Positions 6,297-16,129 of a stretch of DNA of 64,000 nucleotides are shown one piece after another. A program made the position numbers and the translations under genes. Each line of letters opens with the position of its first letter. Position 1 is the first letter of the stretch. Source of the stretch: Mycobacteroides salmoniphilum. Its GTDB lineage: Bacteria; Actinomycetota; Actinomycetes; Mycobacteriales; Mycobacteriaceae. The stretch lies in NCBI RefSeq assembly GCF_004924335.1, contig NZ_CP024633.1, positions 930,001 through 994,000 on the forward strand, read 5' to 3'. The notes under the pieces are model-generated. The model was not told where the DNA came from, did no database searches, and saw only the letters and a program-made list of their open reading frames with translations.

Positions 6297-7418
6297 ATGA
6301 CGACCGAACGGATATCTGACCACGTCACATTCGCGTACTGGGTCCCCAACGTCAGCGGTGGGCTGGTCACCAGCACCATTGAGCAGCGCACGGACTGGGG
6401 TTACGACTACAACGTCGCCCTGGCGCGCACGGCAGAGAACAACGGTTTCGAATATGCGCTCACGCAGGTGCGTTACGAGGCCAGCTACGGCGCCGAGTAC
6501 CAACACGAATCCACCAGCTTCTCCCTTGCCCTGCTGCTGGCCACCGAGCGACTCAAGGTGATCGCCGCCGTTCATCCGGGGCTCTGGCAGCCAGGTGTGC
6601 TCGCCAAGCTGGGCGCGACTGCCGACCACCTGTCGGGCGGTCGCTTCGCCGTCAACGTGGTTTCCGGATGGTTCAAGGACGAGTTCACCCACTTGGGCGA
6701 ACCCTGGTTGGAGCACGACGAGCGGTATCGGCGAAGCGGCGAATTTCTCCAGGTGTTGCGCAAGATCTGGACCGAGGATGACGTCGACTTCCGGGGCGAC
6801 TTCTATCGGATCCACGACTTCACGCTGAAACCGAAGCCGCTGCACACCCCGGAGCTGTTCCAGGGCGGCAACTCGACGGCCGCGCGCCGCAACGGCGGTT
6901 TGTACTCCGACTGGTACTTCTCCAACGGCAAGGACTTCGCCGGTATCACGGACCAGATCGTGGAGGTCCGGGATCACGCTCGAACCGTCGGCCGCGAGGT
7001 CAACGTGGGGCTCAACGGTTTCATCATCGCCAGAGATACCGAGGCCGAAGCGCGCGAGGTATTGCGGGAGATCGTCGCGAAGGCCAACCGCCCCGCGGTG
7101 GAAGGTTTCCGCGCGGCCGTTCAGCAGGCCGGCTCGGCCACAGGAGACAAGAAGGGAATGTGGGCGGATTCCTCGTTCGAGGACCTTGTGCAATACAACG
7201 ACGGATTCCGCACCCAGCTCATCGGCACCCCAGAACAGATCGCCGAGCGGATTGTTGCCTATCGGCGGCGGGGTGTGGACCTGATCCTGGGTGGCTTCCT
7301 GCACTTCCAGGAGGAGATCGAATACTTCGGCGCCAAGGTGCTGCCACTGGTCCGCGAGATCGAGGCGGCCGATGCTCAGGAAACCCACAGCGAATATCGC
7401 GTACCGGTTTTGAGCTAA
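6297..7418 (+). CDS. FMNH2-dependent monooxygenase, dimethylsulfone monooxygenase (SfnG) type
   Basis: This is a 373-residue luciferase-like monooxygenase of the SsuD/SfnG group, which needs reduced FMN from a partner reductase to oxidise small sulfur compounds. FAYWVPNVSGGLVTSTIEQR and YDYNVALARTAENNGFEYAL at the N terminus, the GRFAVNVVSGWFKDEF block and FQGGNSTAARRNGGLYSDW are characteristic of SfnG proteins. I chose ATG at 6297 (MTTERISDHV); the ORF can be extended to 6261 but without family support. No sulfonate transporter or flavin reductase is adjacent, so a role in sulfur scavenging is by family only. It is divergent from the F420-type gene. Confidence 0.85.
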   Translation: MTTERISDHVTFAYWVPNVSGGLVTSTIEQRTDWGYDYNVALARTAENNGFEYALTQVRYEASYGAEYQHESTSFSLALLLATERLKVIAAVHPGLWQPGVLAKLGATADHLSGGRFAVNVVSGWFKDEFTHLGEPWLEHDERYRRSGEFLQVLRKIWTEDDVDFRGDFYRIHDFTLKPKPLHTPELFQGGNSTAARRNGGLYSDWYFSNGKDFAGITDQIVEVRDHARTVGREVNVGLNGFIIARDTEAEAREVLREIVAKANRPAVEGFRAAVQQAGSATGDKKGMWADSSFEDLVQYNDGFRTQLIGTPEQIAERIVAYRRRGVDLILGGFLHFQEEIEYFGAKVLPLVREIEAADAQETHSEYRVPVLS

Positions 7419-7450
7419 CCGATGCGCCTCGGCCGCGTCTCGGCTTGTCC

Positions 7451-7468
7451 TTGCCCCAGCCGGGGCAA
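7451..7468 (+). terminator. small hairpin downstream of the sfnG-like gene
   Basis: TTGCCCC and GGGGCAA form a 7-bp stem with a 4-base loop in the 115-bp gap before the DUF5336 gene. It could be a weak terminator or part of the next promoter. Confidence 0.4.
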
Positions 7469-7533
7469 CGGTGCAGTAGCGTGGAGGCGATCCACCCCGA
7501 GACCACGACCGAAACCGTGATGTAGGAGATGTA

Positions 7534-12124: not shown

Positions 12125-13972
12125 ATGGTTCAGCCCAGTTTGGATTGGCCGGGCGAGCCATTGCGCTCGCTGGTGTGGACGCTGCAGGCCTGGGTGATCA
12201 CCATGGTGATCTTCCTTGCGGTGGCGTTCGCCATCGCTCGCTTCACCCAATGGGGACAACAGTTCTGGCGGGTCAACGCGCCCTTCTTCTGGGGACGCGA
12301 GACCTGGCGCACGTGGGCGCTGGTGGCGTTCATGATGTGGCACACCGTGTACATGGCGCGCGTGACGGTCATCTTCACGTACCAGTACAAGGACCTGATG
12401 AATGCATTGCAGGTCGGTTCGGAGGCGCTCGTCACTCATGACTCCGGACTGCTGGCGGACGCGCGTCAGGCGTTTTTCACGTCATTCGCGATCAGCGGAG
12501 TGTTGGTAGTACTCACCGTGACGTACACGGTGGTGGATCTCTTCCTGCGGAGAGTTCTCGCCATCCGGTGGCGGGTATGGCTCAACACGCGGCTCGTTGA
12601 CGACTGGATGAGCAAGGATGCGTTCTACCGCAACCGTTTTCTGGACACTCCGGTGGAGAACCCGGACCAGCGAATCCAGATTGATATCGAGACGCACACC
12701 ACCAAGTCGGTGGATTTGGTTCTCGGCGCGGTGAACAAGACGCTGCTGATTGTCATGTTTACCGGGGTGCTCTGGCAGCTCTCGGGTCCGTTGTTGTTGT
12801 GGGGAGTCGAGATCCCGCGCGCCATGGTGTTCATCGCGTTCGTCTTCTCGATCACCGTGACGGTCCTTGCGTTCTGGATCGGCCGGCCGTTGGTGCGGCT
12901 GAATTTCTTGAACGAACGATTCAGCGCGAGTTTCCGTTATGCGTTGGTGCGCTTGCGCGACAGCGCGGAGCGCGTGGCGTTCTACCGTGGCGGCGAGCGT
13001 GAACGCAGACTGCTGCATGCACGCTTCGCCGACATCATCGCCAACATGTGGCGGATCGTCTTCGCGCAGCTGCGACTAAACGGCTGGAATCGCGGTGTCG
13101 GCGATGTGACGACGGGGATGATCCCCTACATCGTGCAGGCGCCGCGGTTCTTTACCGGGCAGATCAAGGTGGGAGACCTGCTGCAGACTGTCGCGGCCTT
13201 TGGAAGTGTCTGCGGCGCAATGTCCTTCTTCCGGGACAGCTATGACGAATTCACCGTCTATCGGGCCGCGCTCATGCGTATCGACCAGATGCTCGACAGC
13301 GATCACCGCGCGCGCGAACTGGCACGGATTGACGTGACCGAGGTGGATGATGCCCTGATCCTCACCGATGTCGATGTCCGAGATCTGCAGGGACTGGACA
13401 TGATCGCGGACCTGAGCCTCGAGCTGACCGCGGGTGGCAGTGTCGTCGTCAAGGGCCCATCGGGATGCGGGAAGACCACCCTGCTGCGCAGCCTGGCGCA
13501 GCTGTGGCCACAGGCCACGGGCTTGGTCGCCCGTCCTGACGGGTGGGCGACTCTGTTCCTGCCGCAGCTGCCGTACCTGCCGTTGGGCAACCTACGCGAG
13601 ACCGTGGTGTATCCGCTTCCGGTGGAGGATGTTTCGGACGAGAAGCTGGTACAGGCTTTGCGTGATGTCTCGCTGGGGCACTTGACCGAGCGGTTGGACG
13701 AGGAAGCCGACTGGGCGGCCGTGCTCTCGCTGGGCGAGCAGCAGCGGGTGTCCTTCGTGCGGGTGCTGCTGGTACGCCCGACGGTGGTGTTCCTCGATGA
13801 GTCGACCTCGGCCCTGGATGAGGGGCTGGAGGACGCGATGTATGCGCTGGTGCGGGAACGGCTACCCGACTGCGTGGTGTTCAGCGTGGGGCATAGGTCG
13901 ACGATCGACCGTCACCACCAGTCGCGGTTGCAGCTGACGGGCAGCGGCGCATGGGAGCTCTCACCGGTGTGA
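12125..13972 (+). CDS. BacA/SbmA-type ABC transporter, permease fused to ATPase (Rv1819c-like)
   Basis: This 615-residue protein has about six membrane helices (residues 15-330) in an SbmA/BacA-type membrane domain, then an ABC ATPase. Walker A GPSGCGKTT begins at Gly444, the signature SLGEQ at Ser535, and Walker B ends with Asp558-Glu559. The residues NPDQRIQIDIE and FRYALVRLRDSAERVAFYRG match M. tuberculosis BacA (Rv1819c), an importer of cobalamin and hydrophilic peptides such as bleomycin. The start ATG at 12125 follows GAGGGAGA. It lies 159 bp upstream of a 25-codon ORF and a JmjC oxygenase on the same strand, so a peptide substrate is worth considering. It may be a paralogue rather than the orthologue of bacA. 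Confidence 0.87.
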   Translation: MVQPSLDWPGEPLRSLVWTLQAWVITMVIFLAVAFAIARFTQWGQQFWRVNAPFFWGRETWRTWALVAFMMWHTVYMARVTVIFTYQYKDLMNALQVGSEALVTHDSGLLADARQAFFTSFAISGVLVVLTVTYTVVDLFLRRVLAIRWRVWLNTRLVDDWMSKDAFYRNRFLDTPVENPDQRIQIDIETHTTKSVDLVLGAVNKTLLIVMFTGVLWQLSGPLLLWGVEIPRAMVFIAFVFSITVTVLAFWIGRPLVRLNFLNERFSASFRYALVRLRDSAERVAFYRGGERERRLLHARFADIIANMWRIVFAQLRLNGWNRGVGDVTTGMIPYIVQAPRFFTGQIKVGDLLQTVAAFGSVCGAMSFFRDSYDEFTVYRAALMRIDQMLDSDHRARELARIDVTEVDDALILTDVDVRDLQGLDMIADLSLELTAGGSVVVKGPSGCGKTTLLRSLAQLWPQATGLVARPDGWATLFLPQLPYLPLGNLRETVVYPLPVEDVSDEKLVQALRDVSLGHLTERLDEEADWAAVLSLGEQQRVSFVRVLLVRPTVVFLDESTSALDEGLEDAMYALVRERLPDCVVFSVGHRSTIDRHHQSRLQLTGSGAWELSPV

Positions 13973-14131
13973 ATCGTCCCGGGTGGGAACTTTTGGCTAC
14001 GGCCGTACGACTGATCTAGTGACGGCGCCTGCGGGTTGGGCGTGCGTCCACCGCAGTGGCTCCATGCGACGGATGCCACCACGGTGCTTCTGATGAGTTG
14101 GGCAGTTAACCGTTGAATGAAAGGAACCGCC

Positions 14132-14209
14132 ATGCGCGATATCGCTGTTGAGATCGTTGTCGAGGACGATGAAATCGTCACCGCGACGGAAATGGTTGCC
14201 AGCCACTAA
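14132..14209 (+). CDS. 25-residue peptide, candidate RiPP-like precursor
   Basis: This ORF has an ATG start preceded by AAAGGAACC at a good distance (7-8 bases) and ends in TAA. The peptide is acidic and beta-branched-rich: it begins MRDIAVEIVVEDDE and ends TEMVASH. There are no cysteines. It is followed after 71 bp by a JmjC/cupin oxygenase gene and preceded by a BacA-type peptide transporter gene. The organisation resembles a short precursor gene next to its modifying enzyme. I know no named family for it. It could instead be a regulatory leader ORF for the oxygenase. Confidence 0.5.
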   Translation: MRDIAVEIVVEDDEIVTATEMVASH

Positions 14210-14280
14210 GAGTGGACGTCGGGCGTGCGTGGCCATCCCACTGGCCGCGCACGCCCGTACGCAAGCACGGAGGCAAAACA

Positions 14281-15513
14281 GTGTTCGTCCATGACCCCCG
14301 CTGGCGCCAGTTCGTCGCGGACTGGGCTCCTCGCTATGAAGAAACGGTCTTCATTCCCGAGCTGGTGCCGGACCAGAGCGCGATCGCCGAGCGGATAGCG
14401 GCGGCAGTGACTTCAGCAACCACCGCCGACGGAAAAGGATTGCGACTGCGCGCATTCCGGGGCAGCGAGTTCGACTTCAAGCTCACTGAGCGGCTCTCAC
14501 GCAGCGCGCCGCGAGGCGTGCAGTCCCTGACCGAGTGGCTCGCCGATAACGCCGACGATCGCCCGGCATGCGTCGCCATCAACGACGTCTCCTCGTGGGA
14601 TCTGGGTCTTGCCGCGTTGGCCCAGGCCGTGGTGGGGAGCCTTGTCCCGGACCGAGACCTGGTGTCCGGCGCCGATATCTACACCTTCGTCGCCGATGTG
14701 GAATGGACACCTTTCGGAGTTCACAAGGACGATGAGCCATCACTGATTTTCCACCTGGGTCCGGGTGTCAAGGAACTCTGGGTGTGGCCCGCGGACGGAA
14801 TTGACCAACATCAGTTGTTCGAGAACCCGTCATTGGGCAAGGTCTCGTTTGACTTCGACCGATTGCTTCCCGGCGCGAGTCGCTACATCCTGCGCCCGGG
14901 CGACTTCGTGTGCATTCCCCGTGGGCGCTACCACCTTTTCCGTAATGTGGGTCCCTCGGTGTTCCTGGGCGTCACGCTCTTCCCGCCAAACATCCGAAAA
15001 TCATTTTCGGACTTGATGATCGACCACTTTGGTGCTCGGCTCGATGCGGCGGGCGAGCCGCGCAGCTTCGACGATGTCCGTCAGGTCGTGATGGAGACGC
15101 TCCGCGACCCCGAGGCGATGTCCGGATTGGCGACAACCATGGAACTGGCGGCGGCGAAACAGCGCACCGCCGGGTATCTGCGGGCACCGAAGGTGGTGGC
15201 TTTGCGCGGCGGTGATCCTCCCGTTGGGGCCACCTTCGGCTGGGCGTATCCCGGAGTGGTGCAATCAATCGCGGCTGCGGATCGGACCCACCTGGTGGCC
15301 CGTGGTCGCGCTATCGCGTTCGGTGGCGTGGTGAACCTTGACGGACTCTTAGCACTGGCCGGGGAGTTCACCGCGACTGATCTTGACGCAGTACTAGCGG
15401 AACTGGATATCGACCGGCGCCATCAGGTTGTGAATGCACTGTGGCGCTTCGGCGCTCTGGATCTTGTTAGCGCTCTTCCAGCGACTCGCGCCGCTTGCGC
15501 CGCTTCCGCTTGA
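14281..15513 (+). CDS. JmjC/cupin-fold Fe(II)/2-oxoglutarate-dependent oxygenase
   Basis: This 410-residue protein starts at GTG 14281, seven bases after GGAGG. The double-stranded beta-helix carries the HxD...H iron triad: His148 and Asp150 in FGVHKDDEPS, and His218 in RGRYHLFRNVG. PGDFVCIPRGRYH is typical of cupin-like JmjC hydroxylases that act on protein or peptide side chains. The C-terminal 130 residues (VNLDGLLALAGEFTATDLDAVL and onward) look helical and winged-helix-like, as in ribosomal oxygenases, and may bind substrate. The preceding 25-codon ORF is the natural candidate substrate. The 3' end overlaps the convergent DUF1707 gene by 47 bp. Confidence 0.8.
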   Translation: MFVHDPRWRQFVADWAPRYEETVFIPELVPDQSAIAERIAAAVTSATTADGKGLRLRAFRGSEFDFKLTERLSRSAPRGVQSLTEWLADNADDRPACVAINDVSSWDLGLAALAQAVVGSLVPDRDLVSGADIYTFVADVEWTPFGVHKDDEPSLIFHLGPGVKELWVWPADGIDQHQLFENPSLGKVSFDFDRLLPGASRYILRPGDFVCIPRGRYHLFRNVGPSVFLGVTLFPPNIRKSFSDLMIDHFGARLDAAGEPRSFDDVRQVVMETLRDPEAMSGLATTMELAAAKQRTAGYLRAPKVVALRGGDPPVGATFGWAYPGVVQSIAAADRTHLVARGRAIAFGGVVNLDGLLALAGEFTATDLDAVLAELDIDRRHQVVNALWRFGALDLVSALPATRAACAASA

Positions 15514-16069
15514 CGTTCACGCCGCCCCACAGTGAGAACCCTGTGACCGTCACGTGCGGGGCACCCTCTACGCCCCTGCCGCTCGCTGAGTGATCGAAGC
15601 CACCCATCACCGCGACGCCCGTGACGTCCACGTTGAGCTCGGGCGGTAAGAGGATGGTCTGGCCGCCCATGATGGAGAAGGAACGGATCTCCACCTCCTT
15701 GGAGGTGAAGTCGGCGTAGCGCAGGTCCAGCACGCCGCCACCCCAGAGCGCGAATGAGGTGAGCTTGCTGGGCACGTTCCAGCGGCCGCGTCGTTCAAAT
15801 CCGCTCATGATTGCCATCAGCACCGTCGAGGGGGCGGGCTTGCTGTCTTGACCGCGAACTTGAGAAGTAGCAACCGCGGGCAGATCCGCGCTGAGCTGAT
15901 CAAGCTCACCGTATGTATTTGCCGAGTACACCTTCGTGAGGCGCTCCTCGAACTCAGAGAGCTCCAGCCGACCCTGCGCGGCAGCGTCGGATAACAGCTG
16001 TGCGACGCGCATGCGATCGGCGTCTGCGGCCCGCATCGATGCGGTAACCCGCTCAGGGAGGTTGCTCAT
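15467..16069 (-). CDS. DUF1707 and LiaF-like domain protein (Rv0966c-like)
   Basis: This 200-residue protein has an N-terminal DUF1707 segment with RAADADRMRVAQLLSDAAAQGRL and LSEFEERL. A beta-helical C-terminal domain follows, with repeated LWGG, IMGG and VMGG turns like the cell-wall-stress LiaF/DUF2154 group, and then a very basic tail (KRKRRKRR). No membrane helix or signal is visible. Its place next to echA7 matches Rv0966c-Rv0971c in M. tuberculosis, although csoR and ctpV are missing here. I chose ATG at 16069; a GTG lies one codon upstream. Its 3' end overlaps the JmjC gene. Confidence 0.82.
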   Translation of the reverse strand: MSNLPERVTASMRAADADRMRVAQLLSDAAAQGRLELSEFEERLTKVYSANTYGELDQLSADLPAVATSQVRGQDSKPAPSTVLMAIMSGFERRGRWNVPSKLTSFALWGGGVLDLRYADFTSKEVEIRSFSIMGGQTILLPPELNVDVTGVAVMGGFDHSASGRGVEGAPHVTVTGFSLWGGVNVKRKRRKRRESLEER

Positions 16070-16129
16070 CACCGCCGAGCCTACGACGAACGGCGCTTAA
16101 AGGCACGCGGTTCATTAGTGTTGCTCAGC

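Follow-up and report, generated by a model that had tools for sequence, protein, structure and literature searches.

Does the 25-codon open reading frame (ORF) in front of a predicted JmjC-fold oxygenase gene of Mycobacteroides salmoniphilum encode a peptide on which that enzyme acts, and does the neighbouring ABC transporter belong to the same system? The question arises from a 64,000-nucleotide stretch of the 4.78 Mb genome of this organism (contig NZ_CP024633.1, positions 930,001 to 994,000; hereafter the window), in which an earlier sequence-only reading had proposed a three-part cassette, resembling those of ribosomally synthesized and post-translationally modified peptides (RiPPs), made up of a BacA-type transporter, the short ORF and an Fe(II)/2-oxoglutarate (2OG) oxygenase. 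All three ORFs are present as it described, on the plus strand at 12125-15513 (Table 1). The comparisons reported here show that the short ORF is real and tied to the oxygenase, and that the ABC protein is a common mycobacterial paralogue, a neighbour with a distribution of its own. We hold with high confidence that the conserved peptide-oxygenase pair is real. That the pair forms one unit, with the peptide as the likely substrate and the oxygenase predicted to hydroxylate it, most likely at the C-terminal His, is the interpretation towards which we lean, on sequence comparison, structural modelling and analogy.

Table 1. Position of the peptide-oxygenase pair and associated features in the window
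Feature	Position	Strand	Remarks
ABC protein, BacA-type transporter	12125..13972	+	615 aa; neighbour of the pair
Promoter-like element GGGAACTT...CGAC	13985..14011	+	17 bp between GGGAAC and CGAC
25-codon peptide gene, proposed precursor MRDIAVEIVVEDDEIVTATEMVASH	14132..14209	+	Conserved, mostly synonymous change
Last eight peptide codons (TEMVASH-stop)	14186..14209	+	Nucleotide-identical in 11 genomes
15-bp RNA hairpin between peptide and oxygenase genes	14221..14256	+	Covariation
Predicted JmjC-fold (YcfD/NO66/MINA53-like) Fe(II)/2OG oxygenase	14281..15513	+	GTG start, 410 aa
C-terminal winged-helix domain resembling RiPP recognition elements	15208..15486	+	Predicted; residues 310-402

Conservation of the peptide gene and its pairing with the oxygenase

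Used as a query, the peptide found matches in 10 of 396 genomes of the same genus, and an oxygenase gene was adjacent in every one of them. Nine of these are the genomes that, among 297 sampled from the genus, carry a close oxygenase (79-100% identity, the window's own genome included), and the pair is likewise present in the tenth (G1101); a separate contig scan returned three oxygenase loci, one of which (L003) is additional to that sample. The window oxygenase is 98% identical to an M. salmoniphilum protein (P0003) and 77-79% identical to oxygenases of the opportunistic pathogen M. abscessus (P0016, P0018, P0019 and P0024). The 297 genomes also gave a doubtful match in G030 (E 8e-4) and, in G196, a distant form (37% identity) in which the oxygenase homologue runs into a JmjC_2 domain within a single 608-aa ORF (L023, 8508-10334, minus strand). 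By our reading of the translations, this fused ORF lies near MFS-like, 2OG-oxygenase-like and transposase-like ORFs; a pattern scan of 19 kb of this locus, which assumed a C-terminal His, found no matching peptide.

Codons were compared in 11 distinct genomes, that is, in the 13 aligned rows after dropping L015 and L016, which come from the same contigs as L004 and L005. Among peptide codons 2-25, 12 columns are identical, 8 differ only synonymously and 4 change the amino acid (D/E twice, T/S/A and A/T), whereas 187 of the 410 codon columns of the oxygenase change the amino acid in the same comparison. Because change in the peptide is mostly synonymous or conservative relative to the oxygenase, the ORF looks selected as a protein. 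The sequence-only reading had itself named a lack of codon-level conservation upstream of oxygenase homologues as the result that would speak against it; the ORF proved to be conserved, and the pairing extends to Streptomyces and, differently arranged, to Enterobacterales, as discussed below. Its description of the peptide as acidic, Val/Ile-rich and Asn-free likewise agrees with the composition (4 Glu, 3 Asp, 1 Arg, 1 His). The start codon is preceded by AAAGGA at 14120-14125, and no Pfam or NCBIfam family matched the peptide.

The nucleotide identity of the last eight peptide codons stands against a longest run of two identical codons in the 410-codon oxygenase alignment. Taking the oxygenase rate as reference gives a probability of about 8e-5 for it, and taking the remainder of the peptide gives 0.015, so that the identity exceeds the need of protein selection, and this segment may have an RNA-level role besides coding. 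The hairpin that follows it shows 96.4% of its cells paired in the alignment, with 7 of 15 pairs changed on both sides, compared with 31-45% paired in slid controls; single-sequence folding predicted strong hairpins at the equivalent position of six Streptomyces-type loci. Upstream, the promoter-like element begins 147 bases before the peptide gene in the window; every one of the 13 aligned rows (11 distinct genomes) has GGGAACTT and CGACTGAT without change, and the element may resemble promoters of extracytoplasmic function (ECF) sigma factors. The 5' untranslated region (14019-14131) is strongly conserved in sequence in the 11 genomes. The RNA fold predicted for it received no compensatory support (0 of 33 predicted pairs with change on both sides). 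Rfam gave four matches, all far below gathering scores, which were read as chance. A 24-codon ORF within this region (GTG at 14019) was set aside; in L003 and L004 it contains a one-base gap.

Related pairs in Streptomyces and on Enterobacterales plasmids

Plasmid searches by tblastn (PLSDB) returned 30 records with the first query and 31 with a Streptomyces query; two of the 11 close Streptomyces plasmid records and all five enterobacterial loci were opened, for which the gene tables are incomplete. The Streptomyces-type homologues are about 40% identical to the window oxygenase, and in these loci the oxygenase match begins about 80-135 bp behind a 31-codon gene that encodes ...(V/A)MEI(L/V/I)ED(D/E)N...PR(Q/R)DVGH. 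This gene was found in all six loci with close homologues (two plasmids and four genomes of one genus, likely Streptomyces), in seven copies that all end in DVGH, two of them as a tandem pair before one oxygenase (L051). Some of the peptide scans accepted only His-ending ORFs and were blind to other endings; others, made free of that assumption, gave the same DVGH tails. At five more distant oxygenase homologues the scans, which sought His-ending ORFs, did not find a short peptide gene. Among 392 genomes of the other genus (likely Streptomyces), oxygenase matches occurred in eight, four of them distant. The plasmids of S. goshikiensis and S. zaomyceticus carry, in order, a LuxR-type regulator, the 31-codon gene (unannotated), the oxygenase homologue, a second cupin, an MFS transporter, a 2OG-Fe(II) oxygenase and rsgA; in L025 the second cupin gene belongs to PF08007 and is of the JmjC type.

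In Enterobacterales the homologues are only about 20% identical to the window oxygenase and lie on plasmids, four of Pantoea and one of Klebsiella michiganensis. Their cassettes hold an arginase, the oxygenase homologue and a second cupin gene (PF08007 in L027), joined in four of them by a GNAT-type or hypothetical protein and an MFS transporter. In each of these loci, the strand opposite the operon carries a gene of 57-60 codons ending in RDR(R/S)DTGH, separated by about 0.4 kb from the operon's first gene, and the enterobacterial peptide, when used as a query, matched the same five plasmids. Twelve of 14 enterobacterial-type peptides end in DT(G/S)H; the other two terminate differently. A short putative precursor gene thus sits beside a modifying-enzyme gene, as expected of a RiPP locus, in 10/10 Mycobacteroides, 6/6 Streptomyces-type and 5/5 enterobacterial cases. 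Since the Streptomyces and Enterobacterales pairs are accompanied by a second JmjC enzyme, mostly also by an MFS transporter and by more tailoring genes, the Mycobacteroides pair would be the minimal version; the second JmjC enzyme of the Streptomyces cassette had no match in the window's genome, in a search run without a positive control.

The three precursor types have two traits in common: each contains a hydrophobic-acidic, strand-like stretch (VEIVVEDD, VMEILEDD and VIVEVKKD), and each ends in a small residue followed by His, which in Mycobacteroides is SH. Compared with shuffled sequences, the whole Streptomyces peptide resembles the two enterobacterial types with p values of 0.004 and 0.07, and the last five residues resemble those of the first type with p of about 1.5e-4. 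The Mycobacteroides peptide taken alone is weakly similar (0.08 and 0.24 for the whole peptide; 0.02 and 0.04 for the two-residue tail).

The predicted oxygenase and its candidate target residue

The intact HxD...H triad that the sequence-only reading had reported (H148, D150, H218) is invariant in 13 of 13 aligned oxygenases. By sequence, the enzyme gave two Pfam matches below the cut-offs (Cupin_2 and EAD2), none in NCBIfam, and in the PDB only two matches, with E values of 0.25 and 0.65. Its predicted model, in contrast, is YcfD/NO66/MINA53-like along the whole length, at 10-16% identity in structural alignments: a JmjC fold with the triad is followed by a helical region and a winged-helix domain, the arrangement that characterizes these enzymes. 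Of the more than 40 sequences available, 13 and 12 were selected for the structure alignments, and the domain comparison covered 12 of 13 loci, with exclusion of L052, where the frame does not read as the domain. The C-terminal domain of the model weakly resembles RiPP recognition elements (RREs); a winged-helix domain is also common to YcfD, NO66 and MINA53.

From gene conservation, co-occurrence, hairpin covariation and the (Gly/Ser)-His ending, combined with the predicted fold and domain likeness, we infer translation of the peptide, its docking and hydroxylation, the site of the latter and any trimming or export, as follows. The promoter-like element would drive the peptide and oxygenase genes, and the hairpin between them, acting as a partial stop, would give more peptide than enzyme. 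The acidic, strand-like part of the peptide (about residues 3-13, DIAVEIVVEDD) would bind to the RRE-like C-terminal domain, so placing the invariant tail TEMVASH within reach of the JmjC active site, where Fe(II), 2OG and O2 would hydroxylate the last His, at the beta position by analogy with NO66 and MINA53. The C-terminal His is the simplest target because, among the enzymes, only the first JmjC enzyme recurs in all three cassettes, and this His alone is common to the three tails. The sequence-only reading had stressed hydroxylatable residues, Asp in particular. Asp was rejected as the common target: in Mycobacteroides, D3 and D13 are replaced by Glu in some genomes, and the tail contains no Asp. 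In this minimal RiPP-type system with a YcfD-like JmjC enzyme, as we read it, a general peptidase could release the core; the part of the window from purH to the ECH gene showed no recognisable protease, and none is annotated among the opened cassette genes.

The alternative that survives best, which we nevertheless regard as rather unlikely, is that peptide and enzyme are a true substrate-enzyme pair in which another residue is oxidised (an Asp, Glu, Val or Met of VEIVVED or TEMVAS) while the His has a role in recognition or in binding a metal later. Several residue types are known substrates of JmjC hydroxylases, and within Mycobacteroides TEMVAS is as invariant as the His; moreover, the Streptomyces and Enterobacterales peptides both have an Asp at the third position before the His, and JmjC enzymes are described that hydroxylate ornithine in RiPPs (PMC12257519, PMC12707348). 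Against this stand the variation and absence of Asp just mentioned and the fact that only the C-terminal His, with the small residue before it, is common to the three precursor types.

We consider it improbable that the BacA-type transporter has a part in the system, and equally improbable that it moves the modified peptide as the third member of one cassette, as the sequence-only reading had it. The gene order purH-ABC-peptide-oxygenase-DUF1707-ECH (purH and ECH are named after that reading and from the translations) is the same in 11 loci, among which two contigs are present twice, and in L066; the DUF1707 gene (15467-16072, minus strand) converges on the oxygenase gene with a tail-to-tail overlap of 47 bases (15467-15513). 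The ABC gene is thus found upstream in 12 loci, at 159-249 bp from the peptide gene in 10 of 11 genomes, and among solved structures its product is closest to chain 6tqe_A (E 1.8e-167), which we take to be the mycobacterial BacA, Rv1819c. Bac7 is among the peptides that BacA imports (PMC10960864). The distribution of the ABC gene nevertheless tells against a joint function: in a sample of 41 genomes, homologues (E<=1e-100) occurred in 25 of 25 same-genus genomes, with two in the window's own, and in 0 of 16 genomes of other genera; of these 25, only the window's genome has an oxygenase match, the other 24 having none. Retention of the ABC gene is thus not confined to loci with the pair; in G021, for instance, a copy with 82% identity has no purH, peptide or oxygenase within 12 kb. 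Furthermore, in L021 the otherwise same gene order is interrupted by one extra, unrelated ORF of 195 aa (6947-7531, with a possible membrane anchor), which widens the ABC-to-peptide distance to 1177 bp and separates the ABC gene from the promoter-like element, itself kept. Since this ORF intervenes, the peptide-oxygenase pair can do without the transcript of the ABC gene. In addition, the incomplete gene tables of the seven opened plasmid loci show no ABC gene within the cassettes, six of which hold an MFS transporter.

Somewhat less probable still is a cis-acting role of the short ORF, as leader peptide or attenuator of the oxygenase gene, with the hairpin as terminator. The position of the ORF directly upstream, the covarying hairpin behind it and the nucleotide conservation of its last eight codons would suit this function. 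A partial terminator behind the precursor gene is, however, common in RiPP operons, one Streptomyces-type locus has two copies of the peptide gene, and the peptide endings agree across phyla; above all, the opposite strand and the distance of about 0.4 kb of the peptide gene in all five enterobacterial loci are impossible for a cis-acting leader. Least probable of all is a YcfD-like ribosomal-protein hydroxylase with an unrelated small ORF beside it, to which the best structural matches (YcfD, NO66, MINA53) and the common winged-helix domain lend some plausibility but which is at odds with the patchy spread of the enzyme (matches in 11 of 297 same-genus and 8 of 392 other-genus genomes), its co-occurrence with the peptide and the plasmid cassettes with MFS transporters, arginase, GNAT and further oxygenases.

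Relation to known peptide-modifying systems

JmjC enzymes in RiPP pathways are already known, and the statement of the sequence-only reading that no described family combines such parts was in this respect too strong. In the biphenomycin pathway, the JmjC ornithine hydroxylases PbsQ and BipG (and, as predicted, BpmG) act on precursor peptides (PMC12257519, PMC12707348). As in the system proposed here, a JmjC/cupin oxygenase acts on the precursor of its own cluster, and an arginase is adjacent, as it is in the enterobacterial cassettes. By contrast, the biphenomycin precursor has an FRF core, its cluster encodes an MNIO, a B12 radical SAM enzyme and a TldD protease, and the target is ornithine, whereas the Mycobacteroides tail lacks Arg and the precursors described here have a C-terminal His in common. 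An FRF-type core is absent from the precursors examined here, and neither MNIO, B12 radical SAM enzyme nor TldD is annotated in the seven opened plasmid loci (6-8 kb for the first two; incomplete tables), a result that does not extend to the window's genome, which was not searched for MNIO and B12 enzymes.

NO66 (RIOX1) and MINA53 (RIOX2) beta-hydroxylate His in ribosomal proteins, and the role of their winged-helix domain is called unclear (PMC6182338). The window oxygenase has the full-length fold, the triad and the helical region plus winged-helix domain after JmjC in common with YcfD, NO66 and MINA53; it differs in its low sequence identity and in being paired with a small peptide gene instead of, presumably, acting on ribosomal proteins, and this genomic pairing argues against a ribosomal protein substrate. 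In thioamitides, another 2OG/Fe(II) hydroxylation of His in a ribosomal peptide is carried out by the histidine beta-hydroxylases TsaJ and ThoJ; TsaJ, however, belongs to PF05721 and not to the JmjC enzymes, and its His lies in a C-terminal macrocycle and must first be bis-N-methylated (PMC8153245). PF05721 did not match the oxygenases of the window, L025, L027 and L023, and YcaO/TfuA are not annotated in the opened cassettes, a negative limited to these since the genome was not searched. Finally, RRE domains fused to JmjC (PF08007) are reported from fish and algae, with bacterial homologues of about 30% identity in RiPP-like contexts (PMC12710340); they likewise combine a JmjC oxygenase and a winged-helix domain of bbb-aaa topology, and differ in that the portion of that source available describes no precursor with a C-terminal His.

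In summary of the literature, JmjC oxygenases (biphenomycin) and His hydroxylation (thioamitides) are both established in RiPPs, while their combination as found here did not turn up; no account of a precursor with a C-terminal (G/S)His, or of the Mycobacteroides pair, was found in the partly accessible literature searched, most subscription journals lying outside its coverage. It is tempting to propose, though we do so tentatively and with less than even confidence, an undescribed RiPP class in which precursors with a (Gly/Ser)-His ending are paired with a YcfD-like JmjC oxygenase that contains its own recognition domain. Such a class would span Mycobacteroides, Streptomyces and Enterobacterales plasmids and give a terminal beta-hydroxyhistidine. 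Mycobacteria are poor in known ribosomal peptide natural products. If the proposal is true, beta-hydroxyhistidine together with neighbouring acidic or hydroxylated residues would form a natural metal-binding or antimetabolite group, relevant also to M. abscessus, which carries the oxygenase; the system, with one enzyme and a peptide of 25 residues, would rank among the smallest of its kind and be easily rebuilt in E. coli; and YcfD/NO66-type enzymes and RiPP oxygenases might have a winged-helix domain in common as their substrate-binding part.

Apart from these cassettes, distant oxygenase homologues on Nostoc and Streptomyces plasmids (L029, L037, L030, L035 and L038) lie beside peptides with GLKxG(V/M)RPD-like repeats, for which a limited literature search gave nothing fitting. 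These peptides look like a separate, guanidine-related ribosomal peptide family: L030 and L038 also contain an amidinotransferase, a desaturase, DUF3865, an arginine deiminase and an aminoacyl-tRNA-ligase-like gene, and L035 has some of these.

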